A stretch of 48,659 nt of DNA from a virus. This document shows, one piece after another, positions 1,015-19,341 of this stretch. The stretch is taken from positions 1 through 48,659 of the IMG/VR virus record IMGVR_UViG_3300009507_000028; one strand, given 5' to 3'. The notes beneath the pieces are model-generated. The model searched no databases and was not told the origin of the DNA. It saw only the letters and a program-made list of their open reading frames with translations. Position numbers and translations under genes: made by a program. The first letter of the stretch is position 1. Every line of letters starts with the position of its first letter.

Positions 1015-3414
1015 ATGTCAACAATTAAATTACGCCGTAGTTCGGTTGCTGGCCGAATTCCGACCACCGCTCAGTTAGAGCTCGGTGAAATTGCTATCAA
1101 CACTGCTGATGGTAAATTATATTTTAAGAAATACGACGCTGTTGCTAATACGGAATCAATCATTGACGTATCTGCAGATTTAGATGCAGCAGCAATCCTT
1201 TCACTTTTAACTGGAGTTGACGGCGCAGGTTCAAACCTTGATGCCGACCTCTTAGATGGACAGGAAGGATCATATTACTTAGATTGGTCAAACTTTACCA
1301 ACACAGCTACAGGAGTAGTTGCGAATACGTATGGTTCTTCAACAGAAATTCCAGTTCTTACAATTGATGCCGATGGGAGAATCACGACAGCTAATACAAC
1401 TGCGGTTGCTGGTGTTGATGATTTTACATATGATGCGGCAAATAACCAATTGGCCCTTACGACTGGTGACGGTACAGTATATAATTTATTCTTAAATGAA
1501 TTTAAAGATTTAGTTGTTGAAGATCTTACTGCCAATTCAATTAACATTAATACACTTGGCTTTGACGCATTAGACGTCGCCGGTGATATTAGCGCAAATA
1601 ATGGATTTTTCGCAGGAGACATTACAGTCGATGGTGTAGTTAAATCTGATTTAACAGTTACTCTTACTGGCGATGTTACAGGTACAACAACTTCAAACAC
1701 AGGAACGATTTCTGTTGCAACTGACATTGCGGCATCAGGTGTTACTGCAAATACATATGGTTCTGCAACAGCCATTCCAGTTGTCACAGTTGCGGCAGAT
1801 GGTCGTATCACAAACGCAACAACAACTCCAGTTGCTGGCGTTGATAGTTTTACTTATGCTGCAGCTAATAACACAATTACATTAGAAACTGGAGACGGTT
1901 CAGTATTCCATATTTCTACTGAAACAGAAGTCACTCTTACAGGTGATGTTACAGGAACGGCAACTGCAACCAACGGCAATATTTCAATAGCTTCAGACAT
2001 AGCCAACTCAGGGGTCGTTGCAGGCTCGTATGGATCATCTTCACAAATACCAGTTGTTACTGTTGGCCTTGATGGGCGCATCACCTCTATGTCTAATACG
2101 GCCGTTGCGGGTGTTGATGATGTATCTTGGGTATCCGCAAACAGCACTTTAGTTATTGAAACTGGTGACGGATCAACATACTTTACGACTATTGATACAT
2201 TTGACGAAATCACGGTAACTGGAAATGTTGTAGTTTCAGGTACAGTTGATGGCAGAGATGTTTCGGTGGATGGTGCAAAACTTGATGGCGTTGAAAGCGG
2301 TGCTACCGCAGATCAAACCGCAGCGGAAATTCTTGCTGCATTGATAACTGTTGATGGTGATGGATCAGGCCTTGACGCAGATACAGTAGATGGATATTCT
2401 GCAGCTGAAATTTTAGACGCAGCGGCCAATAATGCGCAATCATTAGTTGGTGCCGGCGATGTTACTATCACGGCAAACAATGGCCTAATTGGTGTTGCAT
2501 CGTTTAATGTCAATACAGCAAACACTGAAAACTTTTCAATATCACACGCTGATACGTCAAGTGTTTCTGATGTTGATAATTCAGCAGGTAATGTATTACA
2601 AGATATAAGTTTTGATACTTATGGGCACGTACAGACAGTTTCATCAGTAGATCTTGATGGTCGTTATTATACTGAAACTGAATTAAATAACGGTCAACTT
2701 GATAGCAGATATTATACTGAAACTGAATTAAACAACGGCCAACTTGATAGCAGATATTATACTGAAACAGAAACAGACGGATTTTTAGTACTTAAAGCTG
2801 ATAAGACTATTGCGATTACCGCTGGAACAGCATTAACTGGCGGCGGGACGCTCGGCGCAAATATAACTATTAATCATGGAGATACTTCATCACAGGCAAA
2901 CCTCGCGTTTGCAAATACAAGTTTAAATCCTGAATTTATTGATGCAATAAATTTTGATGACCACGGCCATGTCTTATCAGTTGTAAAAGGTATTAGGCAA
3001 TATTTAGATACTGCAACTGCAGACGCAAGATACGTTAATGTAACAGGCGACACAATGTCTGGAGCGTTGACAGTTAACGCAAATATCAATCAAACGAACT
3101 CTACACATTTTGATGCATCTTTTACAACTACTTCTACCGCTCAGACAACAGTATATTCATTTCCATACGAATCTTACGGTGGAGCAGAAATTACAATTAC
3201 TGCAACAAGCGGAAGTAATCGACACTTGACAAAACTTTTAGTTACGCACGATGGTTCTACTGCAATCGCAACAGAATACGGTGTTGTTTATACAAATGCA
3301 GAATTAGCAACATATGATGTATTGATTGATGTTGGTGTACTACTTATTCAAGCAACACCTGCTTCTGCAAGTTCTACAAAATTCCAATCCTTTGGGCAGC
3401 TCGCCAAAGTATAA
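1015..3414 (+). CDS. Tail fibre / virion adhesion protein, 799 aa
   Basis: The N-terminus (IKLRRSSVAGRIPT, then LELGEIAINTADGKLYFKK) is the short LRRG/GELAINT module found at the start of many T4-like fibre and Mtd-like proteins, probably a virion-attachment domain. Residues about 95-400 hold three related units with the pattern ANTYGSxxxIPVxTVxxDGRIT, then AVAGVDDF and LETGDGS. Residues about 540-590 hold three copies of RYYTETELNNGQLDS. The C-terminal 120 residues look like a compact beta domain (SFPYESYGGAEITITATS) that could be the tip. Start ATG is preceded by AAAGGG. The gene lies between two other fibre genes and is probably co-expressed late. No enzymatic motif is visible. Confidence 0.75.
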   Translation: MSTIKLRRSSVAGRIPTTAQLELGEIAINTADGKLYFKKYDAVANTESIIDVSADLDAAAILSLLTGVDGAGSNLDADLLDGQEGSYYLDWSNFTNTATGVVANTYGSSTEIPVLTIDADGRITTANTTAVAGVDDFTYDAANNQLALTTGDGTVYNLFLNEFKDLVVEDLTANSININTLGFDALDVAGDISANNGFFAGDITVDGVVKSDLTVTLTGDVTGTTTSNTGTISVATDIAASGVTANTYGSATAIPVVTVAADGRITNATTTPVAGVDSFTYAAANNTITLETGDGSVFHISTETEVTLTGDVTGTATATNGNISIASDIANSGVVAGSYGSSSQIPVVTVGLDGRITSMSNTAVAGVDDVSWVSANSTLVIETGDGSTYFTTIDTFDEITVTGNVVVSGTVDGRDVSVDGAKLDGVESGATADQTAAEILAALITVDGDGSGLDADTVDGYSAAEILDAAANNAQSLVGAGDVTITANNGLIGVASFNVNTANTENFSISHADTSSVSDVDNSAGNVLQDISFDTYGHVQTVSSVDLDGRYYTETELNNGQLDSRYYTETELNNGQLDSRYYTETETDGFLVLKADKTIAITAGTALTGGGTLGANITINHGDTSSQANLAFANTSLNPEFIDAINFDDHGHVLSVVKGIRQYLDTATADARYVNVTGDTMSGALTVNANINQTNSTHFDASFTTTSTAQTTVYSFPYESYGGAEITITATSGSNRHLTKLLVTHDGSTAIATEYGVVYTNAELATYDVLIDVGVLLIQATPASASSTKFQSFGQLAKV
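1305..2210 (+). repeat. Three diverged about 60-90-residue coding repeats
   Basis: Units starting near 1310, 1738 and 2010 each encode ANTYGS-like, IPVxTV, DGRIT, AVAGVD and ETGDGS motifs. The last two also share the preceding LTGDVTGT segment. They build a repeated beta domain in the fibre shaft. Confidence 0.75.
2650..2775 (+). repeat. Short tandem coding repeat in the 799-aa fibre
   Basis: Two full units and one partial unit of about 45 bases, each encoding RYYTETELNNGQLDS, with only a few silent changes between them. Probably a recent tandem duplication inside the shaft. Confidence 0.85.
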
Positions 3415-3450: not shown

Positions 3451-6400
3451 GTGGCGAACGATAAAAAGTTTATAGTCAAGAATGGTCTCTTGACACAAGA
3501 AAATGTTGTTATTGGATCTACTACCGATACCGGAGAAAAACTTCAGGTAACAGGTACTACGAAAGCCACCGGGCAAGTTGAAATTACCCAAGGTACTGCA
3601 GCTTCCACTTTAACTGTAAAAAATACCAATAATACTCTTTACGATCAATTCATAGAATTTGAAGGCAGAAACTCATCCCTTGTCGTACGTGACAGCGGAG
3701 ACGGTGATTACGGACTTTATAATACAAGCGGCGCATCTGAAATTGTATTTAATAATATTAATGCGCGTGGATTAGAATTCCTTGCTGGCAACAATATAAA
3801 ATTTGCACTTACGTCAACAACCGCAGATTTTAAAATTGCGCCAACAGTTAACGGCAGTACTATATGGTATGCGGCAAACGATGGCGCAGGATCAGGACTT
3901 GACGCAGACCTTTTAGATGGAGTTGAAGGCGCAAGTTTTGTAAGATCCGACGAAGATGATACAATGTCAGGCAGTTATGTTATTACTGGTAACTTGACAG
4001 TTCAAGGCACAACAACCACAGTCAATTCTGAAACTGTTTTAATTGCTGATAACCTTCTCACTCTCAACAGCAATTTCACATCAGGTACACCAACGGAAAA
4101 TGCTGGTTGGGAAGTTCTTCGCGGTGATTTAAATCCATCATCTTTGCAATGGGATGAAACAAACGATTGGTTTAAACTAATTTCAGCAGGTACAGACTTA
4201 GGTCGTATTATTACAACTGCAGATGAAGGTCCAGGTAACGGTTTTGATGCTGACACGGTTGACGGTTTAGAGGCTGCGCAATTCTTACGAGCAGATGCAG
4301 ACGATACTGCAACCGGTAATATTACAATTGAACAAGTTCTTACAATTGGTAACAACTCAGGTCCTGCCCGAATTAACTTTGACGGCAATGGAACAAACCG
4401 ATCCATTTACAGCACAGCTGGAAATATTGGGTTTACAAATAATTCCTTATCTTGGTCAGCATATTCTGACACAAACGATGACTGGATTGTAACCGCAAAT
4501 ACAGTTGCACAATCATTCGTCGATGCAAATGATGCATCGTATTATTTAATTCCAGCTGGCGACTCTGTTTTACACGACGTTGGTATTGACCAGAAAATAT
4601 TCCACAACGGCGACGCTGATACGTTTATGAACTTTGGAACAAATACCATAAGTTTTGACACTGGCGGTGCTACTAGGTTTTCAATTTCAAACGCTGATGT
4701 AGAATCTACACTTCCAGTTTATGCGCCAATTTATTATGACAGAGATGCAATTACATATTATATGCATCCTGGTGATGACTCTGTTTTGCACTCAATCGGT
4801 TTAGACGATTGGATTTTTCATAATGGAGACACAACTGCAAGATTTGGTTTTCCAAACAATGGTGAATTTCATGTAGATATAGCAGGAGTAAATAGACTTA
4901 GCATTGATAACAATTCTGCAGACTTTAGTGTAGATGTATATGCTCCAAAATTTATCGACTCAAATAACAATACTTATTTCTTAGATCCTGGCGCAACATC
5001 AGGACCGTCTCTTGTCGTAAGTCAACAAATTCAAGGTGATGATGGCACGGCTAGTATCCCGGGATATGGTTTTGAAGCAGGCACAAGTACTGGTATGTAC
5101 AGATCTGGAGCTGATGTTCTTGCATTTACTCAAGGCGGGGTAAATCGTTTCTTCGTTGGTTTTTCTAGCGGCGCAGCTAACTATTCGTTGGTTGATATGA
5201 GAGCTCCTAGATTTGTAGACTCTGATAATACAGCTTATTATGCGGATCCTGCATCTGACTCTCAAATGAATACTATTGACATCGATGATTACGTTCGCCA
5301 TCGTGGTGATATTACAACTTATATTGGTTTCCCAACCAACGGACAAATATCAACGTTTACTAATGGCGCTGAAAGAATGCGCACAACCGATGCTCTTACG
5401 TATTTTGACCAAAATGTAAGTATTGGCACAACAAGTAATTCCTATACATTAGACGTATATCATGCTACTCTTGATACGATTGCACGCTTTAAGAGTGGTG
5501 ATAACAGAGCGTCTATTGCAGTGTCGGATGATGATACAACCGCATATGTTTTAGCAGAAGCTTCACTTGCTCATTTTGGTATGACATCGTTTATTGATGA
5601 ATCTAATTTGGTTATCAACGCAACTGGTAATGTTGGGATTGGTACTGTCACCCCAACCGAAGCAAATCTTAATCTTAGTACAAGATCGGCCGCAACAAAC
5701 AATCCGTTTGCTGCAGCTAATAAACTGCTATCGTTGCAAGATAACGATACTGAAAAATCATATTGGGCTTTGGATAATTCAAGTAATGTTTGGATTATTG
5801 GAAACGGCGAATACTTATTCTCGACCACAGGCGCAAGCATCGGTGTTACGATAGATGCAACCAACGGCGAACTTGTTATTGGCGACCAAAACGGTACTTA
5901 TGCTACAATGGATGGCGCTTACGAAGGAGTTTCAATTTCTGCTACTCCTTCTCCGTCTGCAAATAAACTTCATGTAAATGGCTCAGTTCAATTAAATTCA
6001 CAGACCGACGTATTTGCAATTAGCGCAGCTGACGGCGGTAATGCTAATATTAACGCAGCCACATTCTTAGGTGTTAATGAATTAGGATTTTCTGCCGGTG
6101 GTGGCTTCTTTATGGACAACACTACTACAATAAAAACTCGTGGGAATAAAAATATACAAACCACAGGCGATATGTATGCAGGCCGTTTTTATGATGATGA
6201 TAATAACACTTACTATGGCGACTTTGCATCTACATCTCAAATGGCGCAAATTGATATTGATACATATATTCGTCATCGCGGAGACACAAATACATATTTT
6301 GGATTTGCTGCTAATGATACATTCAGAGTATGGACTGGCGGTACACAAAGACTAAACATTGATAATAATTCTGCTGATTTTGCTGTTAACGTATATGCTC

Positions 6401-9400
6401 CAATATATTTTGACTCTAATAACAATACTTATTATGGCGATTTTGGTAATACTGATGTTTCAATCAAAATGGCAGGAGAAATACTTGGCGGAGACGGCGC
6501 ACTTGCTACTCCAACATATGCGTTTAATAGTCAAGCAAATAGCGGCATGTACAAGTATGCTGCAAACGTATTAGGTTTTTCTGCAAACGGTAACGATGAG
6601 TTTAGAGTATACAGTAGCTATTCATTATCTCCAGGTTCTTCAAGAGCACCAATTTTTTATGATAGTAATAACACAGCATATTATACTAATCCTGCTAGCA
6701 CCTCTTACTTGTATAATGCATATATTAAAGGCAATCATGATGACACCAGATTACAGCTTTGGTATCCAAGCGGCACAGCTGCAAACGAAGCGTTCTTAAC
6801 TTTATGGGCATCAGAGCCAGGACTCACTTATCATGGTGCAGGTATAGGTGCAAACATTGACTTTAATGGCCAGTATTATGGGCGTGAAACCGCAGGTCAA
6901 CCGTATGGTGTTTACTTAAGCTTTAGGCCAGATACCGGTCAGGCATCTATTCAAACTACAGTAGGCACGCCTGAAACTGCCGGCGCAGCGCAGATAAAAC
7001 ATTTTTATGTTAACCCAGATGGTAACGTATTTGCAAGAACATCATCCCGCGCTCCAATCTTTTATGACTCGAACAACACTGCGTTTTATACAGACCAAGC
7101 AAGTACTTCACTTCATAACGTTCAAAGAGTTCAGCAACTTCAAGTCGACAGTGCAACATATACAATTGATGGTGTAACTGGCAATTATGGTTCTATTAAA
7201 GTTTCAGGTGATACAGGTAGTTATGCAGGATACGCAATTAACGATGATTGGGTATTCATGGCAACCGGTAGCGCTAGTGCTGGTATCTTTAATGATACTC
7301 GTAACGAATGGGTTTTGCAGGCAACTGATAATAGCTGGACAAGATTGTACGCAAACGGCGTTCATCAAATTGGCGCTGAAAACGGTTATGGTTATGCTCC
7401 AACTCAAATGCGAGCTCCAATCTTTTATGACTCGAACAACACTTCATTCTTTGCCAACTTTGCGGCGGGAAACACTAGTACCGCGATTAGTATTAATGGT
7501 CAAATAAGCAGAACAGGTTTTGCATCTGGAGATGTTACAACTAACAAATATCTTATAGCTGAAGATCGTAACCATTGGGTTTGGACTCCTACAAATAATT
7601 GGGGTATTTTCTGGGCTACAACAACATCGTCACTCGCTCATTTTGGATCTGCTAATCCAAACGAACTTACATTCGTAGGTAATGGCGATATTAAAGCATC
7701 TATTGATTTGGATAACGGTAACTTCTACGCCAAAGGCGAAGGTACATTCTCAAATATCAGAATTAGTGGCGGTAACGAAGATCTTCCACTTCTCAAATCA
7801 TATGGCTCAGGTCTTGCTGATACAGTTCTATTCGATGGAACAATGTATTGGGAAAAGCGAGTTATTCAAGCTATGCAAGGTTCTGAAGACAGTGCAACAA
7901 CTTCTACAGCTGACTTCGTTAAATCAGGCACAGCTCCAGTTGCATCAAGCTATATAATCAGAACAAGCGGCTATCGTACATTTTCATCTGACTATATTGA
8001 GGTTGAGCCAGGTGAAGAACTTTATGGCGAAATTGCTGCAAGATACGTATCAGGTAGTGGATCTACTTTATATTACGGTATTGAGCGTTTTGATAAAGAT
8101 AAAAACCCAATTGCAGCTAACAGTGGTACAACATATTTCGTTGCAAGTAATGTTAACGTTAGTTCAACAAGTTGGACAACATATTCAGGTCATACAACAA
8201 TTCCAACAAGTCACACAGCTTACAGCGGCTCTGATGGATCAGGTGTTAAATACGTTCGTATTCGCCTATTAATGAACTATCAAACAACCGGTGCTCTTCG
8301 TGAATTTGGTCCTCCAATTCTAAAAAGAACACAGGTTCATAGTAGACTTCGTAGCTCAAATATTTATGCTCCGATTATGTATGATAGTGATGATAACAAT
8401 TACTATGTAGATCCAGCATCTACATCTAAGTTAAATACAGTTGATGCAAGCAACTTCCGTGACCGTGATAATACTGCATACTTTATGAATCCTGCTTCAG
8501 GCGGTAAAGTAGCAGGTTCTTGGGATTGGACCAATGGTTCAATTGAAAATCTAAACAACCTTTCATTCAACGATCCAGGACCTCAAGAAGGTGTACGTTG
8601 GAAAAGCGGTAATGAATGGAAGATTTACGAATCACCAAACGATCTAACTACAAATTCAGGTGGTAACTTGCAGTTTACGTCTGGTACCGGCGCTGGCACA
8701 ATGCGTATGCGCGTTGAAACTGACGGAGACGTACACGCTGGAAACAGAATGTTTGCCACAGCATTTATTGACTCAAACAACACTGGCTTTTCTGCAAATC
8801 CTGCAAGTACTTCTGTATTCAGTAAACTTCACATCGGTTCAACATCAAACTTAGGCGATGGCACTGATCCAGATATTTCAACTAGTATAATTCAAGCTAC
8901 ATCTAAAATTGTAACACCAAGAGTTGTATTCTTAAACGATGGCACTGGTGATGACAATTATATTCAGCACAGTGATACTAACAGCGCACACACTGTAGCA
9001 GGACAGCAAATGGGCGCATGGTTTGAATTTATTGGTGATAAGATTGCATCTACCGCCACTAACTCAGCCGGTATTGTTGCTTCTGGCCTTAAATCAAGAT
9101 ACGGATCATTTCAAAACCGGCTTGATGCTGCAATCATGTACGATTACAATAGCACAAGTTATTATGTAGACCCTGCGATAACCTCACGTCTTAATACACT
9201 GCGTACCAACAGATTATATCCTTCTTACGATAATAATTCTAGTGTTTACTTTGATTATCCATCTTCATATGGCACCTACGGTTCTGTTGCAGTGTTTGGT
9301 TCTGGTAAAGGCGGGTATGAAGGATATTCTATTGACAATCGCTATGTCTTTATGTCGTCTAGCATTTCAAACATGGGCCTCTATAACGATTACGATAATG

Positions 9401-12400
9401 AATGGATGTTATATGGTACAAGAAACGCGGGTGTTGACTTATATTATAACGGGTCGGTTCAGCTTGAAACTGAAAACGGATACGGATACGCAAGAAATCA
9501 AATGCGCTCTCCAATCTTTTATGACTCAAACAGTACTTCTTACTATGGCAACTTTGCAAGTACATCTAGATTTAATATTGTTAACCTCAACACGTTACAA
9601 TTTAATGGTTTAACATTCACAAACCCAGAAGTTGGTATTTGGTATGAATACGCGTCAAGCTATGGTAGTAGCTATAATCAACTCTATACTCGCTTAGGGC
9701 GTCAGCAAAATTCTGATAGAACTACAATCATTGAATATTATTTCACTCAAAACTGGAATGGTTTTGGGCAAGTTGGTGGTAAAATTTATGTTAGACGAGG
9801 TTCTGGATCTAACAAAATGGGTATCACCCACGTTCCTAATGAAGTTAATATGTATCATACTACAGCCGGAAGTAATTTAGCAAATGCTCCTGAAGTATAT
9901 GTTGATAATTCTAATTACGTTTGGATTGGTATGCCATCCGGCGCAGATGCTGATGCAAAAATATATTTTAGATATGTACAAAAGGCTGGTTTTGAAGAAG
10001 GATTTTATTTCGGTAACCATTATCAAAATTCTGCAATTACACAAGCGGGCGGCGCCACCTTAGCACACGCAGGACCAATTGGCCCAGGCATTCACTGGAA
10101 TGTGGGTGTTAATAATGCGTCAGCTGATTTTGCAGGTGGGCCATATAGTTATGGAGGGTTTGGTTATCTTCACGCAAATGGAGTTTATGTTAGTGGAAAA
10201 GTGCAAGCTCAAAACAATACTTCAAGATACTTAGAGTTAACTGGTAACTCTCATTTAACTAGTCTTGATCTGTTTGGCAATCTCCGCATAGACAACGGCA
10301 ATGAAATACAACTTGACACATCAAGTGGTAATACTCGTGGATACATTGAGGCAACTGAAACCAACGATGCGCATTTAATTATTGCTACATCAGGCGGCGA
10401 AGACATTTCGTTTAGAGATGGTGGAATAGGTGGTCAATGGAATATGATCATTCGCGGAGATGGTGACGTTCTTACAAACAGAAACCATTATGCTCAGGCA
10501 TTTTATGATCGTAACGACTCGGCTCGCTACGTAAATCCAGCTGGTACTTCTGAAATGGGTACTATACGAGCTGATCGTTTTGATATGCGTGATATGGGCG
10601 ATTTTATTACTTTTTATGGTGATGATAATACAAACCATTCTATATCATCTCGTAATAATGCCGGCGACGCATCTGACGATATTCGTATTAACACATACGG
10701 AAGCTTGTGGATTAACTTAGATTCAAACAACAATAATACTTCAGGCGCTGATTTTAGAATTGGCCGTCATGGTGGCGCAACTGGTTCCATTGCTCAAACC
10801 GGTTTATTTGATGTTTACGGCGACTCGTTGTATGCTTACAGTGCTTATAGTTTCCGTTCACCAATCTTCTATGACTCCAACGACACAACTTATTATACAA
10901 ATCCGGCTAGCACATCAGTAATGAACACGCTTGATGTTCGTAGCGAAGTGTATAACGATGGTTGGTTCCGTAACGATACAGGTGGCCGCGGTCTTTACAG
11001 CACAGCACACGCAATGCATTGGTATGCAACCGATGATAACTATTGGGATCTTTCTCATAACGACGATAGCGCAGCAATTGGTATTCGATTAAGAGGTACT
11101 TATGACGGTACAATTCGCGGTTATCTTTATGCCGAGTCTGATAACGATTTTGGTCTATTAAATAACAGTGGTTCATGGAGACTTCGGGTTGTTGCCGGTG
11201 ATTGGATTGACGCTGCTGGGGGAAGTGTTCGTGCTAAAATATTCTACGATCGTGATAACACTGGTTATTATTTTGATGGTGCTTCAACTTCACGCTCGAA
11301 CTACCACAGAATTAACAACCTATATGACTCACAAGAACGTAGATACACCGCCCCTAATGGTGGTACATATACTACAACAACGAGCTCTGTAACTGGCGCA
11401 ATTCGTATTAGAATGCCAACCAATCGGTTTAAATCTAATACAATGTTGAAGTTCAAAGTTTCTGTTTATGAATACTCAACAGGTAGAACTCACGAATTTT
11501 TGATCTCTGGCTACAATAACAACAACGCTAGCCAAACATGGTACAACGAAGCTGCAACTCAGTTAACGGACGACAACCGTGGCGCATATACAATTCGTTG
11601 GGGTGGTAACGGAACTGATAACATTGTTTGGATTGGTGAAACCAACAGTACTTGGTCTTATCCGCAGGTTCACGTTCAGTGGGTTGACGTTGGTTATTCT
11701 GGTTACTCGACAAACTGGGGTCAAGATTGGATTGTTGATTTTGTAACATCGTTTGACACAGTAACAAGAACAAGAACCGCATCTTTAGTTTATACTTTAA
11801 ATAACAAAGATAACTGGTCATACGATCTTCGTGGTACATTGTTTTATGATAACAATAACACTGGTTATTATTGTGATCCTGCTTCAACGTCAAACTTTAA
11901 CTCGGTATTAATAAATCGCCTTCGCCTTGATGATGGTGGTGTTAATGGGCATCTTTATACTGGGGATACGTATTTAGATATTGCATACGGCGCATCTGGC
12001 GGTGGAGGTATTCGTTTATATGATAACCAAGATGTACTTCAAGGTTACTGGTACGGTAACGGTGCCGGTGAGCATGGCTTCTTAGATAATGATGGAAGCT
12101 GGGCAGTTCGAGTTCGAACCGGAACCAACTCTATGCTGTTCTATACTGACGGCAATCAAGAATTTGAAATTCACACGACGTATACATATTCGCCCGGCTC
12201 GTCGAGAGCACCTATTTTCTATGATAGTAATGACACAACCAAATATACTGATCCTGCTGGCACCTCACAGATGTATAGGATTAGCCAATTAGATCGTTTA
12301 ACATTTGTTTCTGGTCCATACATTGATGACGGCGGCGAGGATAATAGGCTAAACTTTTATACTACTGATACCGACAACGGGCAGTTTTATTTTACTGAAG

Positions 12401-13041
12401 CAAACGGTCAAGGTGGTAGAATTAGAGCTGACGATGATGGTTCTATTTTTGCGTTGTATCATGACAATGGCGAAGCAATTCTTCTTGCTGACCAAGACTA
12501 TATTACATATATTTACTACAATGGTACATGGGAAGGCCGTACAAGATCTGGTTATTTTGAAGCTCGTGGTTCATTCCGTGCTCCATTATTCTATGACCAG
12601 AACAACACATTCTACTACACTAACCCCGCATCAACCTCGCGCATGAATGGTATCAACGCCTACGGCGAAATTCGCTCAGATGAAAACATTGTTGCTTACT
12701 ACGATTATTCTGATATTCGTTGGAAGGAAAATGTTAAAATTATTGATAATGCCGTAGATAAAGTTAAGCAACTTGATGGTATTACATATAACTATATTGA
12801 CCGCGAAGGCGAATACACTGGTGTAATTGCGCAGCAAGTTGAAAAGGTTCTTCCTGGAGTCGTATATGACACCGAAGATATGAAAACTGGCAAAGAACGT
12901 AAAGGTGTTCGTTACGGTAATATGGTTGGCTTATTGATTGAAGCTACAAAAGAACAACAAAAAACTATAGAAAATCAGCAAGAAGAGATTGACAAATTAA
13001 AAGAATTGGTATATAGTCTAATGGACAAGTTAGATAAATAA
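3451..13041 (+). CDS. Giant tail fibre with repeats and C-terminal peptidase S74 chaperone domain, 3196 aa
   Basis: GTG start with GGGGAGAG upstream and a TATAAATA late box at 3410-3417. After an N-terminal region (LDADLLDGVEG, TVQGTTTTVNSETV) the protein has about 19 copies of a degenerate repeat (RAPIFYDSNNTAYYTNPASTS-like, 50-200 residues apart), which probably form a long trimeric beta shaft. Residues about 3084-3196 are a peptidase S74 intramolecular chaperone: SDIRWKENV gives the Ser3087-Lys3092 dyad with the five-residue spacing known for this family, followed by GVIAQQVEKVLP and a C-terminal coiled coil. In this family the chaperone trimerises the fibre and then cuts itself off before the serine, which would leave a mature chain of about 3086 residues. 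It is the likely main receptor-binding fibre, and very long for a myophage. Confidence 0.9.
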   Translation: MANDKKFIVKNGLLTQENVVIGSTTDTGEKLQVTGTTKATGQVEITQGTAASTLTVKNTNNTLYDQFIEFEGRNSSLVVRDSGDGDYGLYNTSGASEIVFNNINARGLEFLAGNNIKFALTSTTADFKIAPTVNGSTIWYAANDGAGSGLDADLLDGVEGASFVRSDEDDTMSGSYVITGNLTVQGTTTTVNSETVLIADNLLTLNSNFTSGTPTENAGWEVLRGDLNPSSLQWDETNDWFKLISAGTDLGRIITTADEGPGNGFDADTVDGLEAAQFLRADADDTATGNITIEQVLTIGNNSGPARINFDGNGTNRSIYSTAGNIGFTNNSLSWSAYSDTNDDWIVTANTVAQSFVDANDASYYLIPAGDSVLHDVGIDQKIFHNGDADTFMNFGTNTISFDTGGATRFSISNADVESTLPVYAPIYYDRDAITYYMHPGDDSVLHSIGLDDWIFHNGDTTARFGFPNNGEFHVDIAGVNRLSIDNNSADFSVDVYAPKFIDSNNNTYFLDPGATSGPSLVVSQQIQGDDGTASIPGYGFEAGTSTGMYRSGADVLAFTQGGVNRFFVGFSSGAANYSLVDMRAPRFVDSDNTAYYADPASDSQMNTIDIDDYVRHRGDITTYIGFPTNGQISTFTNGAERMRTTDALTYFDQNVSIGTTSNSYTLDVYHATLDTIARFKSGDNRASIAVSDDDTTAYVLAEASLAHFGMTSFIDESNLVINATGNVGIGTVTPTEANLNLSTRSAATNNPFAAANKLLSLQDNDTEKSYWALDNSSNVWIIGNGEYLFSTTGASIGVTIDATNGELVIGDQNGTYATMDGAYEGVSISATPSPSANKLHVNGSVQLNSQTDVFAISAADGGNANINAATFLGVNELGFSAGGGFFMDNTTTIKTRGNKNIQTTGDMYAGRFYDDDNNTYYGDFASTSQMAQIDIDTYIRHRGDTNTYFGFAANDTFRVWTGGTQRLNIDNNSADFAVNVYAPIYFDSNNNTYYGDFGNTDVSIKMAGEILGGDGALATPTYAFNSQANSGMYKYAANVLGFSANGNDEFRVYSSYSLSPGSSRAPIFYDSNNTAYYTNPASTSYLYNAYIKGNHDDTRLQLWYPSGTAANEAFLTLWASEPGLTYHGAGIGANIDFNGQYYGRETAGQPYGVYLSFRPDTGQASIQTTVGTPETAGAAQIKHFYVNPDGNVFARTSSRAPIFYDSNNTAFYTDQASTSLHNVQRVQQLQVDSATYTIDGVTGNYGSIKVSGDTGSYAGYAINDDWVFMATGSASAGIFNDTRNEWVLQATDNSWTRLYANGVHQIGAENGYGYAPTQMRAPIFYDSNNTSFFANFAAGNTSTAISINGQISRTGFASGDVTTNKYLIAEDRNHWVWTPTNNWGIFWATTTSSLAHFGSANPNELTFVGNGDIKASIDLDNGNFYAKGEGTFSNIRISGGNEDLPLLKSYGSGLADTVLFDGTMYWEKRVIQAMQGSEDSATTSTADFVKSGTAPVASSYIIRTSGYRTFSSDYIEVEPGEELYGEIAARYVSGSGSTLYYGIERFDKDKNPIAANSGTTYFVASNVNVSSTSWTTYSGHTTIPTSHTAYSGSDGSGVKYVRIRLLMNYQTTGALREFGPPILKRTQVHSRLRSSNIYAPIMYDSDDNNYYVDPASTSKLNTVDASNFRDRDNTAYFMNPASGGKVAGSWDWTNGSIENLNNLSFNDPGPQEGVRWKSGNEWKIYESPNDLTTNSGGNLQFTSGTGAGTMRMRVETDGDVHAGNRMFATAFIDSNNTGFSANPASTSVFSKLHIGSTSNLGDGTDPDISTSIIQATSKIVTPRVVFLNDGTGDDNYIQHSDTNSAHTVAGQQMGAWFEFIGDKIASTATNSAGIVASGLKSRYGSFQNRLDAAIMYDYNSTSYYVDPAITSRLNTLRTNRLYPSYDNNSSVYFDYPSSYGTYGSVAVFGSGKGGYEGYSIDNRYVFMSSSISNMGLYNDYDNEWMLYGTRNAGVDLYYNGSVQLETENGYGYARNQMRSPIFYDSNSTSYYGNFASTSRFNIVNLNTLQFNGLTFTNPEVGIWYEYASSYGSSYNQLYTRLGRQQNSDRTTIIEYYFTQNWNGFGQVGGKIYVRRGSGSNKMGITHVPNEVNMYHTTAGSNLANAPEVYVDNSNYVWIGMPSGADADAKIYFRYVQKAGFEEGFYFGNHYQNSAITQAGGATLAHAGPIGPGIHWNVGVNNASADFAGGPYSYGGFGYLHANGVYVSGKVQAQNNTSRYLELTGNSHLTSLDLFGNLRIDNGNEIQLDTSSGNTRGYIEATETNDAHLIIATSGGEDISFRDGGIGGQWNMIIRGDGDVLTNRNHYAQAFYDRNDSARYVNPAGTSEMGTIRADRFDMRDMGDFITFYGDDNTNHSISSRNNAGDASDDIRINTYGSLWINLDSNNNNTSGADFRIGRHGGATGSIAQTGLFDVYGDSLYAYSAYSFRSPIFYDSNDTTYYTNPASTSVMNTLDVRSEVYNDGWFRNDTGGRGLYSTAHAMHWYATDDNYWDLSHNDDSAAIGIRLRGTYDGTIRGYLYAESDNDFGLLNNSGSWRLRVVAGDWIDAAGGSVRAKIFYDRDNTGYYFDGASTSRSNYHRINNLYDSQERRYTAPNGGTYTTTTSSVTGAIRIRMPTNRFKSNTMLKFKVSVYEYSTGRTHEFLISGYNNNNASQTWYNEAATQLTDDNRGAYTIRWGGNGTDNIVWIGETNSTWSYPQVHVQWVDVGYSGYSTNWGQDWIVDFVTSFDTVTRTRTASLVYTLNNKDNWSYDLRGTLFYDNNNTGYYCDPASTSNFNSVLINRLRLDDGGVNGHLYTGDTYLDIAYGASGGGGIRLYDNQDVLQGYWYGNGAGEHGFLDNDGSWAVRVRTGTNSMLFYTDGNQEFEIHTTYTYSPGSSRAPIFYDSNDTTKYTDPAGTSQMYRISQLDRLTFVSGPYIDDGGEDNRLNFYTTDTDNGQFYFTEANGQGGRIRADDDGSIFALYHDNGEAILLADQDYITYIYYNGTWEGRTRSGYFEARGSFRAPLFYDQNNTFYYTNPASTSRMNGINAYGEIRSDENIVAYYDYSDIRWKENVKIIDNAVDKVKQLDGITYNYIDREGEYTGVIAQQVEKVLPGVVYDTEDMKTGKERKGVRYGNMVGLLIEATKEQQKTIENQQEEIDKLKELVYSLMDKLDK

Positions 13042-13070
13042 ACTTATAATTAACAACGGAGAAAATAAAA

Positions 13071-13451
13071 ATGGCTTTTACATACGAATGGTCGGTGACC
13101 AACCTGAAGGTTAAGGATCAAGTTAACTCAGAAGGTGCTACACTTCAAAACGCAGTTGTCCAAACTCATTGGCAAGTAACTGGAACTGATGAAAATGGTA
13201 ATTCCGCTCAGTTTTCAGGCGCAACACCATTTACCGCAGAAAACGTACCAGCTGGTACATTTACAGCATTTGCAGATTTAACAGAAGCAAATGTTTTAGC
13301 TTGGATCCAAAATGTGGTAAATAGCGACGCAGGATATAAAGCGCATATTGACGAACGAATTCAATTTGAAATTGATAAAGATCTTGTAACTGAGATTGAA
13401 GAAGATTCGCTTCCGTGGGCTGCTGGTGGCGACGCCGAAGCTCCAGAATAA
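13071..13451 (+). CDS. Conserved small phage protein, probable virion-associated (paralogue 1)
   Basis: 126 residues, soluble, acidic C-terminus. It opens with TYEWSVTNLKVKDQVNSEG and contains VQTHWQVTGTDENG and ADLTEANVLAWIQNVV. The following gene has the same order of motifs (TYTWKI-like start, SVDWKKTGT, DFVSLTDITEDHLIGWVQ), so the two are paralogues. I associate this fold with small proteins encoded beside tail fibres in marine T4-like phages, which suggests a fibre accessory or attachment role, but no function is established. Good ribosome site (GGAG) upstream; GATAAATA at 13033-13040 is one mismatch from the late box. Confidence 0.65.
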   Translation: MAFTYEWSVTNLKVKDQVNSEGATLQNAVVQTHWQVTGTDENGNSAQFSGATPFTAENVPAGTFTAFADLTEANVLAWIQNVVNSDAGYKAHIDERIQFEIDKDLVTEIEEDSLPWAAGGDAEAPE

Positions 13452-13468
13452 GAAGAGGTACTTAATCC

Positions 13469-13801
13469 ATGGAATATACTTGGAAAATAATAAAGTATAG
13501 GACTAGGGACGAGGTAAATGCTGACGGCATTACTCTTTCAGATTCTGTGGTGTCAGTAGATTGGAAAAAAACCGGTACTGCGCTTAACGGGGTATCTTCA
13601 CGTTATATAGGAACAACCGACATATCGGCTGCTAGCACCGCAGTGGCCGATTTTGTTTCTTTAACAGATATTACTGAAGATCATTTAATTGGATGGGTTC
13701 AAGAATCTTTATCAGCTGAAGATGAACGTGTCATAAATGAAACTATAGCTAAAAAAATTGCAAAGAAGAACGACGTAAAACGCGCCGCGAATTTTAGCTA
13801 A
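13469..13801 (+). CDS. Conserved small phage protein, paralogue 2 of the preceding gene
   Basis: 110 residues. It shares with the preceding protein the pattern of an aromatic start (EYTWKIIKY), a D/NEVN(A/S)(D/E)G segment, a VSVDWKKTGT strand and a LTDITEDHLIGWVQESL helix. The C-terminus differs and is basic (AKKIAKKNDVKRAANFS), whereas paralogue 1 ends acidic. Only 17 bases separate the two genes and AAGAGG lies before the ATG. A tandem duplication followed by divergence is the simplest explanation. The opposite charge of the tails hints at different partners, or pairing with each other; that is inference. Function unknown. Confidence 0.6.
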   Translation: MEYTWKIIKYRTRDEVNADGITLSDSVVSVDWKKTGTALNGVSSRYIGTTDISAASTAVADFVSLTDITEDHLIGWVQESLSAEDERVINETIAKKIAKKNDVKRAANFS

Positions 13802-13831
13802 GTAAATTAAAATTTATATTATGGAGGTACT

Positions 13832-14872
13832 ATGCACGAACTGCATACAGGTGGCCTAGTTAAATATGCATTACGCAGAGGTGGATCTATTCACCCGGTC
13901 ATCGTCCCAGAGTCAGTTTTAGGTAACCAAACCGGGACGATGAATCCATCTATCTTTGTTCATAAAGATAAAATTCTTATGAACTTACGACATATCAATT
14001 ATATTTTATATCATAGCGAAGGTAAAAAGTTTCCTCACACGTGGGGTCCTTTGGTATACGTACATCCACAAAACGATGTGTCATTAACTACATATAATGT
14101 TATGTGTGAATTTGATTTAAATTTGAATTTAGTGGCCGCCGGCAGAGTTAATACTTCTGATTTTGATACTAAACCAACATGGAACTTTATCGGTTTAGAG
14201 GATGCTCGTTTATTTAGTTGGGATGACAAGCTTTATCTTTGCGGGGTACGTAGAGATTGTTACGATTCTAACGGCAAAGGCCGGATGGAAATGGCTGAAA
14301 TAGAATTTCATAATAATGAATGGAAAGAAGTATCTCGTAATCCAATTCCAGCACCAGGAGACGATAGTAGCTATTGTGAAAAGAATTGGATGCCAATTAA
14401 CGATATGCCTTATCATTTTGTTAAATGGTCAAATCCAACTCAGGTAGTGCATTACGATATTGAGAAAAAAGTTACTACTGATGTGACTCTCAAAACAATG
14501 GAAGAAAGATTTCCATTACAAAAAGATCTTCGCGGTGGATCTCAAGTTATTCGTATAAATGAAAACCGCCAAATGTGTTTAGTTCATGAGACAAATCTAT
14601 TAAAAGATCCATTTAATAGAAAAGACGGAAATTATGCGCATCGGGTTATTATATATGATAATGATTGGAACATAACTAATGTTTCACCCGAGTTTCATTT
14701 CCTAGGTACTTATTATGATCACGTAAAAGGTCAAGATTACAATATTGAATTTTGTACTGGCGTTGCGCTTGTGGGAGAAGATTTATTAATATCTTTTGGT
14801 TTATCAGATAACGTATCTTATATACTGAAAATTCCAACAAGTGTGTTTTTTGATTTTGTATCTAGAGGATGA
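13832..14872 (+). CDS. GH130-like five-bladed beta-propeller protein (glycoside phosphorylase/hydrolase-like)
   Basis: 346 residues. Repeated beta-blade signatures include MNPSIFVHKDKILMNLRH (about 38-54), GLEDARLFSWDDKLYLCG (121-138), EKNWMPIND (183-191), DLRGGSQVIRI (about 232) and EFCTGVALVGEDLLISFG near the end. The GLEDARLF and EKNWMP motifs are typical of the GH130/GH43-type propellers that act on mannosides or related glycosides, with acidic residues in the central pocket. It could degrade or rearrange a host surface glycan or a phage-made sugar. It heads a three-gene sugar cassette, separated by three bases from the next gene, and has a strong GGAGG site. Family-level assignment is moderate; substrate is unknown. 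Confidence 0.6.
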   Translation: MHELHTGGLVKYALRRGGSIHPVIVPESVLGNQTGTMNPSIFVHKDKILMNLRHINYILYHSEGKKFPHTWGPLVYVHPQNDVSLTTYNVMCEFDLNLNLVAAGRVNTSDFDTKPTWNFIGLEDARLFSWDDKLYLCGVRRDCYDSNGKGRMEMAEIEFHNNEWKEVSRNPIPAPGDDSSYCEKNWMPINDMPYHFVKWSNPTQVVHYDIEKKVTTDVTLKTMEERFPLQKDLRGGSQVIRINENRQMCLVHETNLLKDPFNRKDGNYAHRVIIYDNDWNITNVSPEFHFLGTYYDHVKGQDYNIEFCTGVALVGEDLLISFGLSDNVSYILKIPTSVFFDFVSRG

Positions 14873-14875
14873 TAA

Positions 14876-16114
14876 ATGAGTAATATTCAACAACTCTTAA
14901 ATGACTTTGTTATGGATTATGAAAATCCATTTAAAATGTATGAACTTGCAAAAGAATACGATAAACTTGGCCAAGACGCAGCTGCGTTTACTTATTATTT
15001 AAGAGCTGCTGAGTTTTGTGATGGTAAAACGTATGATGAAAAACTACTTCAATATAGATCCTTGATTTTAGGAGCAAAATGTTTTGCGGATCAAAAAAAT
15101 AGAGAAGTAACAGTTTACAGTTTATTAAAAATGGCAATCACGGTTCTACCAAACAGACCTGAAGCTTATTATTTTATGTGTAATTATTGTGAGGAAAACG
15201 GTGAATGGCGCGAATCTTTAGTTTATTCATCAATCGGATTATTATTTGTTAATACTGAGTTAAGTATAGGTGATAACGATATTGATTATCCAGGTAAGCA
15301 AGGATTGTTATATCATAACGCATCGGGGTCCTGGAAAGATAATGGTACCGACGAGTCTAAACGTTTATTGTTTAATGTAGCTTATGATAAAAATATTGAC
15401 CAAGAATGGAAAGATAAATCAATTGGGTGGTTAAATAATATAGGATATCCAAGTTATATTCCATACGAAGGGGAAGCTGAAAAATACAAGTTTCCATTCC
15501 CAGGTATTGAAAAGGTTGAAAAGAATTATGCAAGGCATTATCAAGATATGTTTGTGTTATCTGCATTGGACGGAAAAGAAAATGGCATTTGGGTAGAAAT
15601 TGGATCTGGGTTACCATATAAAGCAAATAATACCGCATTACTTGAAGACACGTTTAATTGGAAAGGATTGTCTATTGACAATTCAGAAAGAGCATGTTAT
15701 AATTATTCCAAAGAAAGAACAAGTACTGTAGTCATGGCAGATGGTAAAGATATTCATTATCCTTCAATGTTCAAGCAAAGCTGTCTAACTGATTGGATTG
15801 ACTTTTTAAGAATTAACGCAGAACAAGTATCACTTGACGTATTAAAGAAAATACCTTTCGGCCAATACGAATATGGTGTAATTCAATTTCAGCATAATGC
15901 ATGTTGGTGGGGTCCTGAGTTTAGAGAAGAATCAAGAGCATATCTTAAAGGTATAGGATACGTATTAGCTGTAAACGATGTGTCTATGGATCCTCTTTCA
16001 AATTATGAAGATTGGTGGCTACACCCGCAAGTGGCACAACAAAAGCCAAATATGATTGTGAACGGCCACACTGATAAGAAAAACTTTATATATGATTATG
16101 TAATGAAGGAGTAA
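14876..16114 (+). CDS. TPR-containing FkbM-like SAM-dependent methyltransferase
   Basis: 412 residues. The N-terminal about 125 residues are helical and TPR-like (YELAKEYDKLGQDAAAFTYYLRAAEF; then RPEAYYFMCNYCEENGEWRESLVYS). The C-terminal half carries a class I methyltransferase core: WVEIGSG at about 239-245 (SAM-binding motif I), NNTALLEDTFNWKGLSIDN, VVMADGKDI and DFLRINAEQVSLDVL, in the order seen in FkbM-type enzymes. TPR-plus-transferase fusions are common in glycan and surface-polymer modification. It is sandwiched between a GH130-like protein and a nucleotidyltransferase-cupin fusion with gaps of only three bases, so a common sugar pathway is likely. The methyl acceptor cannot be predicted. 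Confidence 0.6.
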   Translation: MSNIQQLLNDFVMDYENPFKMYELAKEYDKLGQDAAAFTYYLRAAEFCDGKTYDEKLLQYRSLILGAKCFADQKNREVTVYSLLKMAITVLPNRPEAYYFMCNYCEENGEWRESLVYSSIGLLFVNTELSIGDNDIDYPGKQGLLYHNASGSWKDNGTDESKRLLFNVAYDKNIDQEWKDKSIGWLNNIGYPSYIPYEGEAEKYKFPFPGIEKVEKNYARHYQDMFVLSALDGKENGIWVEIGSGLPYKANNTALLEDTFNWKGLSIDNSERACYNYSKERTSTVVMADGKDIHYPSMFKQSCLTDWIDFLRINAEQVSLDVLKKIPFGQYEYGVIQFQHNACWWGPEFREESRAYLKGIGYVLAVNDVSMDPLSNYEDWWLHPQVAQQKPNMIVNGHTDKKNFIYDYVMKE

Positions 16115-16117
16115 GCT

Positions 16118-16891
16118 ATGAGAATTGTTGTTGTTACTGGAGGATTTGATCCGGTTCACTCAGGCCATATTGAATATTTTAAAGCTGCAGCTAAGTTAGG
16201 AGATAGTCTTTTAGTTGGCGTTAACAGCGATGAATGGTTATCACGTAAAAAAGGTAGACCGTTTATGCCTATAGAAGAACGCACTGCCATCTTAGACGCC
16301 TTAGCAGTTGTTGACAGCGTGTTTGAATTTGATGATGGGGATGATACTGCAGTTGGAGCTATAAGACAAATACGAGAAGAATTTCCTGATGCTGAAATTA
16401 TATTTGCAAACGGCGGTGATCGTAAAAAAGGTACAACCCCTGAAGTTGAATACGCAAAAGAATTAATTGAAGAAGGCAAAATCATTTTTGCGTTTGGCGT
16501 TGGTGGAAACGATAAAAAGAATAGCTCATCTTGGCTACTTGAAAATTGGGACAAACCTGAAGTCCAAAGACTGTGGGGTAAATATAGAAATCTTGATAAT
16601 AACGGACATTGGAAAGTTAAAGAACTATCTATTGATGTTAAAAAATCACTATCAGACCAAAAACATTTTGTTCGCTCAGAGCACTGGCATATTGTTGATG
16701 GCAAACTTGAAATGAACCTTGAGTTTCCAAATGGATATAAAACATCTAAGGTTTACTCAACAGGTGATAGTATTGACATTCCACCTCAAACTTGGCACAG
16801 GGCAACAAACGTTGGTAAACGCCCAGTAAAGGTAATTGAAGTATGGATGGGTGACGTTTTATCAGAGGATGACATAGAAAGGCGAGATTAA
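16118..16891 (+). CDS. HldE-C/TagD-like nucleotidyltransferase fused to mannose-6-phosphate-isomerase-type cupin
   Basis: 257 residues. Residues 1-140 are a cytidylyltransferase-like domain: GGFDPVHSGH holds the HxGH motif (His14, His17), followed by LLVGVNSDEWL, KGRPFMPIEERTAILDAL and GGNDKKNSSS, which matches the phosphate-binding signature. It most resembles the ADP/CMP-sugar synthesising RfaE/HldE C-domain. Residues about 165-257 are a cupin of the type II mannose-6-phosphate isomerase kind (RSEHWHIVDG, IDIPPQTWHRATN, IEVWMGDVLSEDDIER). The fusion would couple activation of a sugar phosphate to sugar handling. It completes the sugar cassette. Both domain calls are clear; the substrate is not. 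Confidence 0.75.
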   Translation: MRIVVVTGGFDPVHSGHIEYFKAAAKLGDSLLVGVNSDEWLSRKKGRPFMPIEERTAILDALAVVDSVFEFDDGDDTAVGAIRQIREEFPDAEIIFANGGDRKKGTTPEVEYAKELIEEGKIIFAFGVGGNDKKNSSSWLLENWDKPEVQRLWGKYRNLDNNGHWKVKELSIDVKKSLSDQKHFVRSEHWHIVDGKLEMNLEFPNGYKTSKVYSTGDSIDIPPQTWHRATNVGKRPVKVIEVWMGDVLSEDDIERRD

Positions 16892-16913
16892 ATTTTGCCC
16901 TACCTCTACATAT

Positions 16914-16921
16914 TATAAATA
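16914..16921 (+). promoter_or_regulatory. T4-type late promoter box before gp13
   Basis: TATAAATA in the gap after the cupin-fusion gene, 34 bases before the gp13 ATG. Confidence 0.8.
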
Positions 16922-16954
16922 GACTATAAAGCAAAAGTATCTTAGAGGTTTACT

Positions 16955-17698
16955 ATGGCTCAGCCTACAAGCAAAGAAGAATTTAAAGATTACGTCCTTA
17001 GAAAATTAGGCGCACCGGTTATTGAAATAAACGTATCCGAAGAGCAAATAGACGACCGTGTAGATGAAGCTGTTTCCTTTTGGAGAGATTATCATTATAA
17101 CGGAAGTCAACTTGTTTATTTAAAACACGCTATTACGCAGGATGATATTGATAACGGTTACATTACGCTTCCCACACGACTTTTAGGTATATCAAAAGTA
17201 TTTGATTTACAGACTTCTATCAGCGCAGGTGTTGGAATGTTCAATGTTCAATACCAATATACTTTAAACAACATAAGAGATATTACTGGATATAATATTC
17301 AAAACTATTATATGACTATGTCTTATATTGAATTCTTACAAGAAATGCTTGTAGGAAAACCTTTAATAAGATTTAACAAACATGTGAATAAGCTATACGT
17401 TGATGTTGACCAAAAGATTTGGACTGTCGGCGATTTTATTATTATTGAAGCTTATGATATCATTGACCCAGGTGAATATGCTGAAGTTTGGCAAGATCGG
17501 TGGTTGCAAAATTATACTGCAGCATTAGTAAAAGAAAATTGGGGTGCAAACCTTACAAAATTTGTCGGTATGCAATTAGTCGGTGGTGTAACTTTTAACG
17601 GCGAACAGATTTTACAAGAAGCAAGAGAAGAACGTCAGCGAATGGAAGAAGAAGCTGTTAACTCGCTTCAACCACTCACATATAATTTTATTGGATAA
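16955..17698 (+). CDS. 13: Neck protein gp13 (head completion)
   Basis: 247 residues, somewhat shorter than T4 gp13. The N-terminal SKEEFKDYVLRKLGAPVIEINVSEEQIDDRVDEAV followed by YITLPTRLLGISKVF is characteristic of the family. In T4, gp13 and gp14 form the head-neck ring that seals the filled head and joins it to the tail. TATAAATA at 16914-16921 lies 34 bases upstream and starts the late virion operon 13-14-15. Three bases separate its stop from gp14. Confidence 0.92.
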   Translation: MAQPTSKEEFKDYVLRKLGAPVIEINVSEEQIDDRVDEAVSFWRDYHYNGSQLVYLKHAITQDDIDNGYITLPTRLLGISKVFDLQTSISAGVGMFNVQYQYTLNNIRDITGYNIQNYYMTMSYIEFLQEMLVGKPLIRFNKHVNKLYVDVDQKIWTVGDFIIIEAYDIIDPGEYAEVWQDRWLQNYTAALVKENWGANLTKFVGMQLVGGVTFNGEQILQEAREERQRMEEEAVNSLQPLTYNFIG

Positions 17699-17701
17699 GT
17701 C

Positions 17702-18409
17702 ATGGCTACGAATCCCTATTTCCGAAACTACGGTAACTTTAACGAACAAAACTTAATAGACGATTTAGTCATTGAGTCAATTAAAATGTATGGTGTTGAC
17801 ATTGCATACATACCAAGAAACTTTGACTCTATTGACAATATCTTAAATGAAGATGATACCTCAACCTTCGGTGGTGATTTAACAACACAAGGTGGTAACA
17901 ACTATAGCATTGTTTACGATATGGAAATGTATGTTAAGAGTGTTGATGGTTTTGAAGGAGAAGGGGATTTCTTAAGTAGATTTGGTTTACAAATACGAGA
18001 TCAAGTAACGTTTAGCGTTGCATATAGAACTTTTGAACGTTTTGCTACTCGCTTAGATCCTGACCAAACAAGACCAAATGAAGGTGATGTAATTTACTTT
18101 CCACTTAATGATAAAATGTTTAAAGTTATGTTTGTTGAACATGAGTCAGTATTCTATCAACACGGAGCGTTACAAGTATATGATTTGCGCTGCGAATTGT
18201 TTGAATATTCTGGCGAACGTTTCCAAACAGGTCGTTACGAAATTGACCACCACTTTGATGATGTTGATATTACACAGGCAACTACTTTAACTCAATTGGC
18301 AAATACAGACCCAGTTGCAAAAAACGTTTACTTTGAAGCTGAAGCTGATAGTGTTCTTGACTTCTCAGAAATAGATCCATTCAGTGAAAACATTAGTATA
18401 CCGGATTAA
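17702..18409 (+). CDS. 14: Neck protein gp14
   Basis: 235 residues, close to T4 gp14. It begins ATNPYFRNYGNFNEQNLIDDLVIESIKMYGVDIAYIPR, the recognisable family start, and contains FNLND-type beta segments (VIYFPLNDKMFKVMFVEHE). It partners gp13 in the neck and acts as a docking site for the tail terminus. Gene order 13-14-15 with gaps of three and five bases supports the call. The Asp/Glu-rich C-terminus is ordinary for the group. Confidence 0.92.
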   Translation: MATNPYFRNYGNFNEQNLIDDLVIESIKMYGVDIAYIPRNFDSIDNILNEDDTSTFGGDLTTQGGNNYSIVYDMEMYVKSVDGFEGEGDFLSRFGLQIRDQVTFSVAYRTFERFATRLDPDQTRPNEGDVIYFPLNDKMFKVMFVEHESVFYQHGALQVYDLRCELFEYSGERFQTGRYEIDHHFDDVDITQATTLTQLANTDPVAKNVYFEAEADSVLDFSEIDPFSENISIPD

Positions 18410-18414
18410 TATAA

Positions 18415-19314: not shown

Positions 19315-19341
19315 TCAATACAGATAATAGGAAAAACTCAA

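Follow-up and report, generated by a model that had tools for sequence, protein, structure and literature searches.

The L-shaped tail fibre protein pb1 of phage T5, of 1396 aa, ends in a self-cutting chaperone; the available portion of its description reports that the Thr1263-Ser1264 bond is cut with Lys1269 as the partner, and describes no repeat of the type considered below (PMC4690869). The long tail fibre protein gp37 of the T4-like Salmonella phage S16 (PDB 6f45) also carries an autocleaved C-terminal chaperone (PMC7917993, PMC6851490). In the accessible text, its last 113 residues are cut off before SDRRIKK, by which the docking site of gp38 is exposed (PMC7917993), and a structure of the fibre tip is presented (PMC6851490). 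Cleavage of MYRF takes place at the P586-S587 bond and is abolished by S587A or K592A (PMC8326128, in the part accessible). T4 gp34 is listed with 1289 aa in the excerpt available. As far as the accessible parts go, variable fibre genes of marine phages (PMC3909814) and the exchange of fibre modules, with separate chaperones, between distant phages (PMC10579305) are also on record.

In this study, we analysed a tail fibre of 3196 aa encoded in a linear IMG/VR virus record of 48,659 bases, hereafter the window. Its C-terminal Ser3087 and Lys3092 are spaced like Ser1264 and Lys1269 of T5 pb1. The initial annotation had predicted a shaft far longer than the T4 long tail fibre subunits, and the chain is about 2.5 times the length of T4 gp34. 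Exceptional length as such was rejected, as S74 proteins of 3161 aa and 4971 aa occur in the Synechococcus phages DSL-LC03 and S-CREM2, respectively. The DSL-LC03 protein (WJZ47903.1; S74 at 27 bits against a cut-off of 22) possesses the same repeat near its C-terminus, but in only five copies, and a DUF7936-like gene is located directly downstream of its gene, as in the window; it differs in the context of the catalytic dyad (S-S-I-E-F-K), and the last 396 fibre residues are only 26% identical. The S-CREM2 protein, gp85 (long tail fiber protein), is likewise S74-ended and from a marine T4-like phage (Kyanoviridae), but no repeat copy above 10 bits was found in its last 4565 residues (L107). 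Since long S74 fibres and fibre-module exchange have been described before, the fibre is placed within a known kind: it is an unusually large and repeat-rich example of the S74 fibre type, with visible exchange of inserts. The features discussed below are as follows (window positions, strand, fibre residues where applicable).

3451..13041 (+): gene of the tail fibre (3196 aa, starting with GTG)
3451..4506 (+): residues 1-352, N-terminal part free of repeats, which may anchor the fibre in the virion
4507..12654 (+): residues 353-3068, region in which inserts separate 20 copies of APIFYDSNNTxYYxxPASTS, a motif of ~27 residues (iterated HMM)
4456..4935 (+): residues ~336-495, for which the close relative L011 carries another sequence (protein and DNA alignment)
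7165..7386 (+): residues 1239-1312, type A insert (profile 6.9e-33; pairs with insert 1919-2017)
9250..9480 (+): residues 1934-2010, type A insert (profile 1.4e-33)
9583..10491 (+): residues 2045-2347, insert for which L011 and L013 mostly carry other sequence (flanking 50-residue blocks 72-96% identical)
10936..11226 (+): residues 2496-2592, type B insert (pairs with 2821-2917, 1.9e-8)
11311..11826 (+): residues 2621-2792, globular insert modelled as a beta-sandwich (model m712318fba925)
11911..12201 (+): residues 2821-2917, type B insert (pairs with 2496-2592)
12709..13038 (+): residues 3087-3196 (110 aa), intramolecular chaperone of the S74 type with a predicted helix at its C-terminus (Pfam and PDB profile matches)
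12709..12711 (+): Ser3087, predicted nucleophile (sequence and 13-row alignment)
12724..12726 (+): Lys3092, predicted general base (sequence and 13-row alignment)
13071..13451 (+): DUF7936 copy 1, 126 aa, directly downstream of the fibre (Pfam PF25590, 3.4e-15)
13469..13801 (+): DUF7936 copy 2, 110 aa (Pfam PF25590, 4.3e-11)

The fibre gene and its phage context

The frame proposed by the initial annotation, a tail fibre closed by an S74 domain, is present and uninterrupted by stop codons, with the domain at its C-terminus. A Shine-Dalgarno-like GGGGAGAG stretch is located upstream and ends 6 bases before the GTG. The repeat-free residues 1-352 contain two G-x-D-A-D-x-x-D-G motifs, which are common in fibres, and their best local matches are structural proteins of Vibrio, Synechococcus and Cellulophaga phages; this part is the putative virion-anchoring end.

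Homologues of the T4-type neck, sheath stabiliser, terminase, sheath, tube, portal, prohead protease, scaffold and major head proteins (gp13-gp23 types) are encoded downstream of the fibre, so that the window, judged by its gene content, is a fragment of a T4-like phage. For the major capsid protein, identity is 68% to Sinorhizobium phage phiN3, 64% to the Methylophilales phages Melnitz and 63% to Pelagibacter phage HTVC008M. No isolate matched positions 10000-22000 at the DNA level. The gene at 16118-16891 fuses a cytidylyltransferase-like domain (HldE type) to a mannose-6-phosphate isomerase cupin domain, and is perhaps involved in surface sugar chemistry. A collagen-repeat fibre of 1291 aa with an Mtd-type N-terminus (19342-23217) is followed by an FG-GAP repeat protein (23181-24578), and the pair is inserted between the genes of the gp15-type sheath stabiliser and the terminase small subunit.

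The fibre is probably the long tail fibre, of the host-recognition type, of a T4-like phage, modular in build and processed by its S74 domain. Most PHROG hits of its C-terminus carry the names tail fibre or long tail fibre distal subunit; baseplate wedge proteins are also among them, with families of up to 2607 positions. Instead of the long tail fibre, it could be another S74-ended virion protein, such as a baseplate wedge-type protein, a whisker or an accessory spike. This fits a related 221-kb sequence with three S74 genes, whose frames measure 3120, 1585 and 313 aa, and the further fibre-like genes of the window at 1015-3414 and 19342-23217. However, the prevailing PHROG names, the repeat-and-insert build common to the DSL-LC03 protein and an insert common to Vibrio phage fibres make this assignment unlikely. 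A weak gp9/10 N-terminal match in the 221-kb relative was below the cut-off. In each of three other contigs (L112, L124 and L125), three successive fibre-like genes with the FYDSNNT repeat are found, with DUF7936 after the last.

Repeats, inserts and their exchange between relatives

An HMM seeded with 12 repeat copies was iterated on the fibre chain itself, and copies were counted above 25 bits. The 20 copies score 27-51 bits, against a maximum of 6.1 bits in the controls (200 shuffled chains and the reversed chain). The repeats of the initial annotation are thus real, with the count of about 19 corrected to 20; their spread over nearly the whole chain holds for residues 353-3068 and fails for residues 1-352, where no copy occurs. 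The proposed pattern is recognisable, though FYDSNNTxYY, the form of most copies, has one residue more than claimed. Start-to-start spacings are 70, 72, 87, 325, 73, 83, 135, 121, 318, 27, 102, 125, 126, 330, 120, 125, 200, 125 and 124, with eight of the 19 within 120-135 and five within 70-87. No tandem repeat was found in the fibre gene at the DNA level, and the copies are therefore old, diverged protein repeats. The string YDSNNT appears in no paper of the literature searched.

Relatives were collected by a scan with the last 213 fibre residues (18 loci) and a scan with gp13 (80 loci, including the already counted L009). Full-length S74 frames were found in L011 (3118 codons, 21 repeats), L012 (3197, 20), and L017 and L024 (3120, 20 each), where codons are counted from stop to stop and include a few before the start, and repeats by the HMM trained on the window chain. 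Such full-length orthologues on other contigs, together with the lack of a DNA tandem array, rule out that the gene is an assembly artefact. A fifth orthologue, from an uncultured T4-like phage (L025/L026; 3063 aa), is related along most of the chain and has 18 copies by the same HMM, but differs at its end: in L025 (4091-13282) and L026, the S74 domain is swapped for an unrelated C-terminus matching phrog_6427, whose function is not assigned, and the L025 C-terminus has no Pfam match. Close relatives have nearly identical repeat spacings, and distant relatives share them in part. The repeats are better conserved than the remaining chain against three of six relatives only: the difference was reached by none of 500 shifted masks for L017, 19 of 500 for L025 and 29 of 500 for L022. 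No clear excess was seen for L011 (81 of 500) or L012 (262 of 500), nor were the repeats more conserved than the remainder for L021 (227 of 500).

Comparison with the close relatives reveals where the chain has been exchanged. Per block of 50 residues, the fibre is mostly 72-100% identical to L011, with drops to 22-50% in blocks 351-500 and to 8-29% in blocks 2051-2300; at the DNA level, these replacements are bounded at about residues 336-495 and 2031-2310. A comparable drop (30-48%) is present in L013 at residues 2101-2300, and no such gap in the L012 alignment. For the replaced insert (query 2042-2347), the phage collection yielded nothing at E 1e-5. Three of the four L011 seams lie near a repeat and one, at about residue 2301-2310, lies off it. 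On a rough estimate, such a distance from a repeat applies to about a third of the chain; the proximity is therefore not significant and does not establish the repeats as the sole recombination seams.

By BLAST, 139 inserts of 40 residues or more, taken from 11 fibres, fell into one large set with 78 members, 13 small ones and 12 singletons; the large set results from single linkage and does not represent one domain. Eight pairs of homologous inserts were detected within the chain. A stricter type A profile is strong in the window chain only at residues 1239-1312 and 1934-2010, and in part at 2995-3034. Stretches homologous to insert 2621-2792 were found in nine Vibrio phage records, lying mid-chain and not at the tip in the three that were examined. 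Residues 1063-2041 as a query matched 43 phage records (33 Bacillus, eight Synechococcus and two Vibrio), and the stretch around 1662-1768 is related to Bacillus phages, with Bacillus accounting for 19 of the 20 matches listed, which match there. The initial annotation proposed a modular rod, of which the modular chain is retained on the evidence of a few recurring insert types and whole-insert replacement between conserved flanks. Sequence comparison thus supports a modular fibre composed of conserved repeats and exchangeable inserts of a few shared types.

One of the inserts was examined by structure modelling. The model of residues 2593-2945 (m712318fba925, 34-row alignment) has a mean pLDDT of 65.6; its 172-residue insert is beta-rich and confident in most places (69-92 per 10-residue block at model residues 51-190, chain residues 2643-2782), and the adjoining repeats are at low confidence (28-66 per block). 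Foldseek gave no match in the PDB at E 0.001 or better for the insert. VIA-align, which re-ranks only Foldseek's own hits, placed T4 gp9 first (Z 7.8, 106 residues, 3.1 A), followed by a variant baseplate chain of Klebsiella phage KP1 and tailspike-like domains; with every row under Z 8, these similarities may reflect just a common arrangement. Galectins reached only Z 3.7-4.9, among many unrelated beta-sandwiches, and a viral structure library returned fibre and tail proteins (best E 1.6e-12). The initial suggestion that inserts may bind glycans found no support here; the similarity to gp9 and tailspike domains is weak.

The same model could be taken to indicate a chain of independent globular adhesin domains, with the repeats as linkers and no intertwined shaft. 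Three-chain fibre folds are often modelled poorly as monomers, so that a confident insert next to low-confidence repeats is a weak point in favour of linkers. Several inserts comprise just 45-100 residues, and S74-type chaperones of solved structure, in the source text available, serve trimeric beta-structured proteins. We therefore consider such a chain quite unlikely.

The S74 end and the DUF7936 genes

Pfam Peptidase_S74 (PF13884) matches residues 3087-3138 (E 6.2e-14, 52.5 bits against a cut-off of 22), at the extreme C-terminus of the chain. The dyad which the initial annotation called intact was recovered inside this match as the string S-D-I-R-W-K with S-x4-K spacing. Every one of the 13 aligned rows has the Ser, Asp and Lys of S-D-x-x-x-K. 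Of the 28 frames with repeats in L009-L098, where several loci are overlapping cuts of the same contigs, 25 carry an S-x4-K motif close to their end; the exceptions are two L025 frames and one L026 frame. Among PDB sequences, the C-terminal profile matches the S16 gp37 tip construct 6f45 (1.3e-14) and MYRF 7dc3 (2e-8). A cut is expected between Tyr3086 and Ser3087, since equivalent bonds are cut in T5 pb1, MYRF and S16 gp37. A domain that folds the fibre and remains attached uncut is very improbable: mutations near the reaction centre of MYRF can block or misplace the cut (PMC8326128, in its accessible part), but all 13 aligned relatives keep the dyad, and the T5 and S16 relatives are described as cut (PMC4690869, PMC7917993, likewise in part). 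The AF2 monomer of residues 2918-3196 is poor (mean pLDDT 46), with a 41-residue C-terminal helix (model residues 238-278) at low confidence.

The proteins encoded directly downstream of the fibre belong to DUF7936 and are not gp38 by Pfam, in which the locus differs from the S16 fibre and its gp38 docking site. In viral sequences, DUF7936 follows 41 of 49 S74 frames with the repeat and 13 of 89 without it; in genome contigs, it follows none of 95 without and neither of the two with the repeat. These counts cover frames with at least 700 bases downstream, keep duplicates and treat five named phage regions as viral. The eight viral repeat frames without DUF7936 lie on five contigs (L112, L120, L124, L125 and L159), each carrying another S74 frame followed by DUF7936. 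In the reverse search, 80 DUF7936 loci were fetched and 67 were informative, ten being dropped for short upstream DNA and three for lack of an upstream frame of at least 150 aa. An S74 frame is located directly upstream in 35 of the 67, each with at least one repeat copy, and not in the other 32, among which L317 has its S74 fibre one gene further upstream. After removal of identical last-80-residue ends, the ratio is 28 to 21. The upstream gene in most of the 32 is, as we take it from inspection by eye, 2OG-Fe(II) oxygenase-like. The same S74-DUF7936 pair is present in the isolate Roseobacter phage CRP-5 (Zobellviridae). DUF7936 as a dedicated S74 partner is weakened by the 32 loci; the link is real in several lineages and not exclusive. 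DUF7936 is named in no paper of the literature searched.

Proposed assembly of the fibre and its implications

From T5, S16 and MYRF we infer how the fibre may be trimerised and cleaved, and how long its shaft may be. Three chains would associate via their C-terminal helices, and the S74 domain would seed an intertwined beta shaft. Lys3092 would then activate Ser3087, the chain would be cut before Ser3087, and departure of the chaperone would expose the mature tip. The repeats might form joints or short shaft turns of the rod and the inserts knobs or shaft segments, so that recombination swapping inserts, and sometimes the chaperone too, could tune recognition while the rod is kept intact. The poor C-terminal monomer model, the low pLDDT of the repeats, the off-repeat L011 seam, the baseplate wedge hits and the missing or unclear excess of repeat conservation against L021, L011 and L012 count against the long-fibre account. 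A bolder extension, tentative and rather unlikely, is that the rod was built by recombination, with conserved FYDSNNT joints allowing exchange of non-homologous recognition cassettes and even of the chaperone, and that DUF7936 docks at the tip vacated by S74 as gp38 does in S16. If true, DUF7936 would be a so far overlooked adhesin of the tip, or a partner in fibre assembly, that unrelated marine phages employ.

The known picture of S74 processing is unchanged by this fibre. Most host-recognition fibres from uncultured T4-like phages of marine origin lack annotation, and the FYDSNNT repeat can serve to find fibres of the present kind. The fibre offers a readable case of block-wise exchange inside a single chain of over 3000 residues, and DUF7936, a linked family of no assigned function, gains a testable role.
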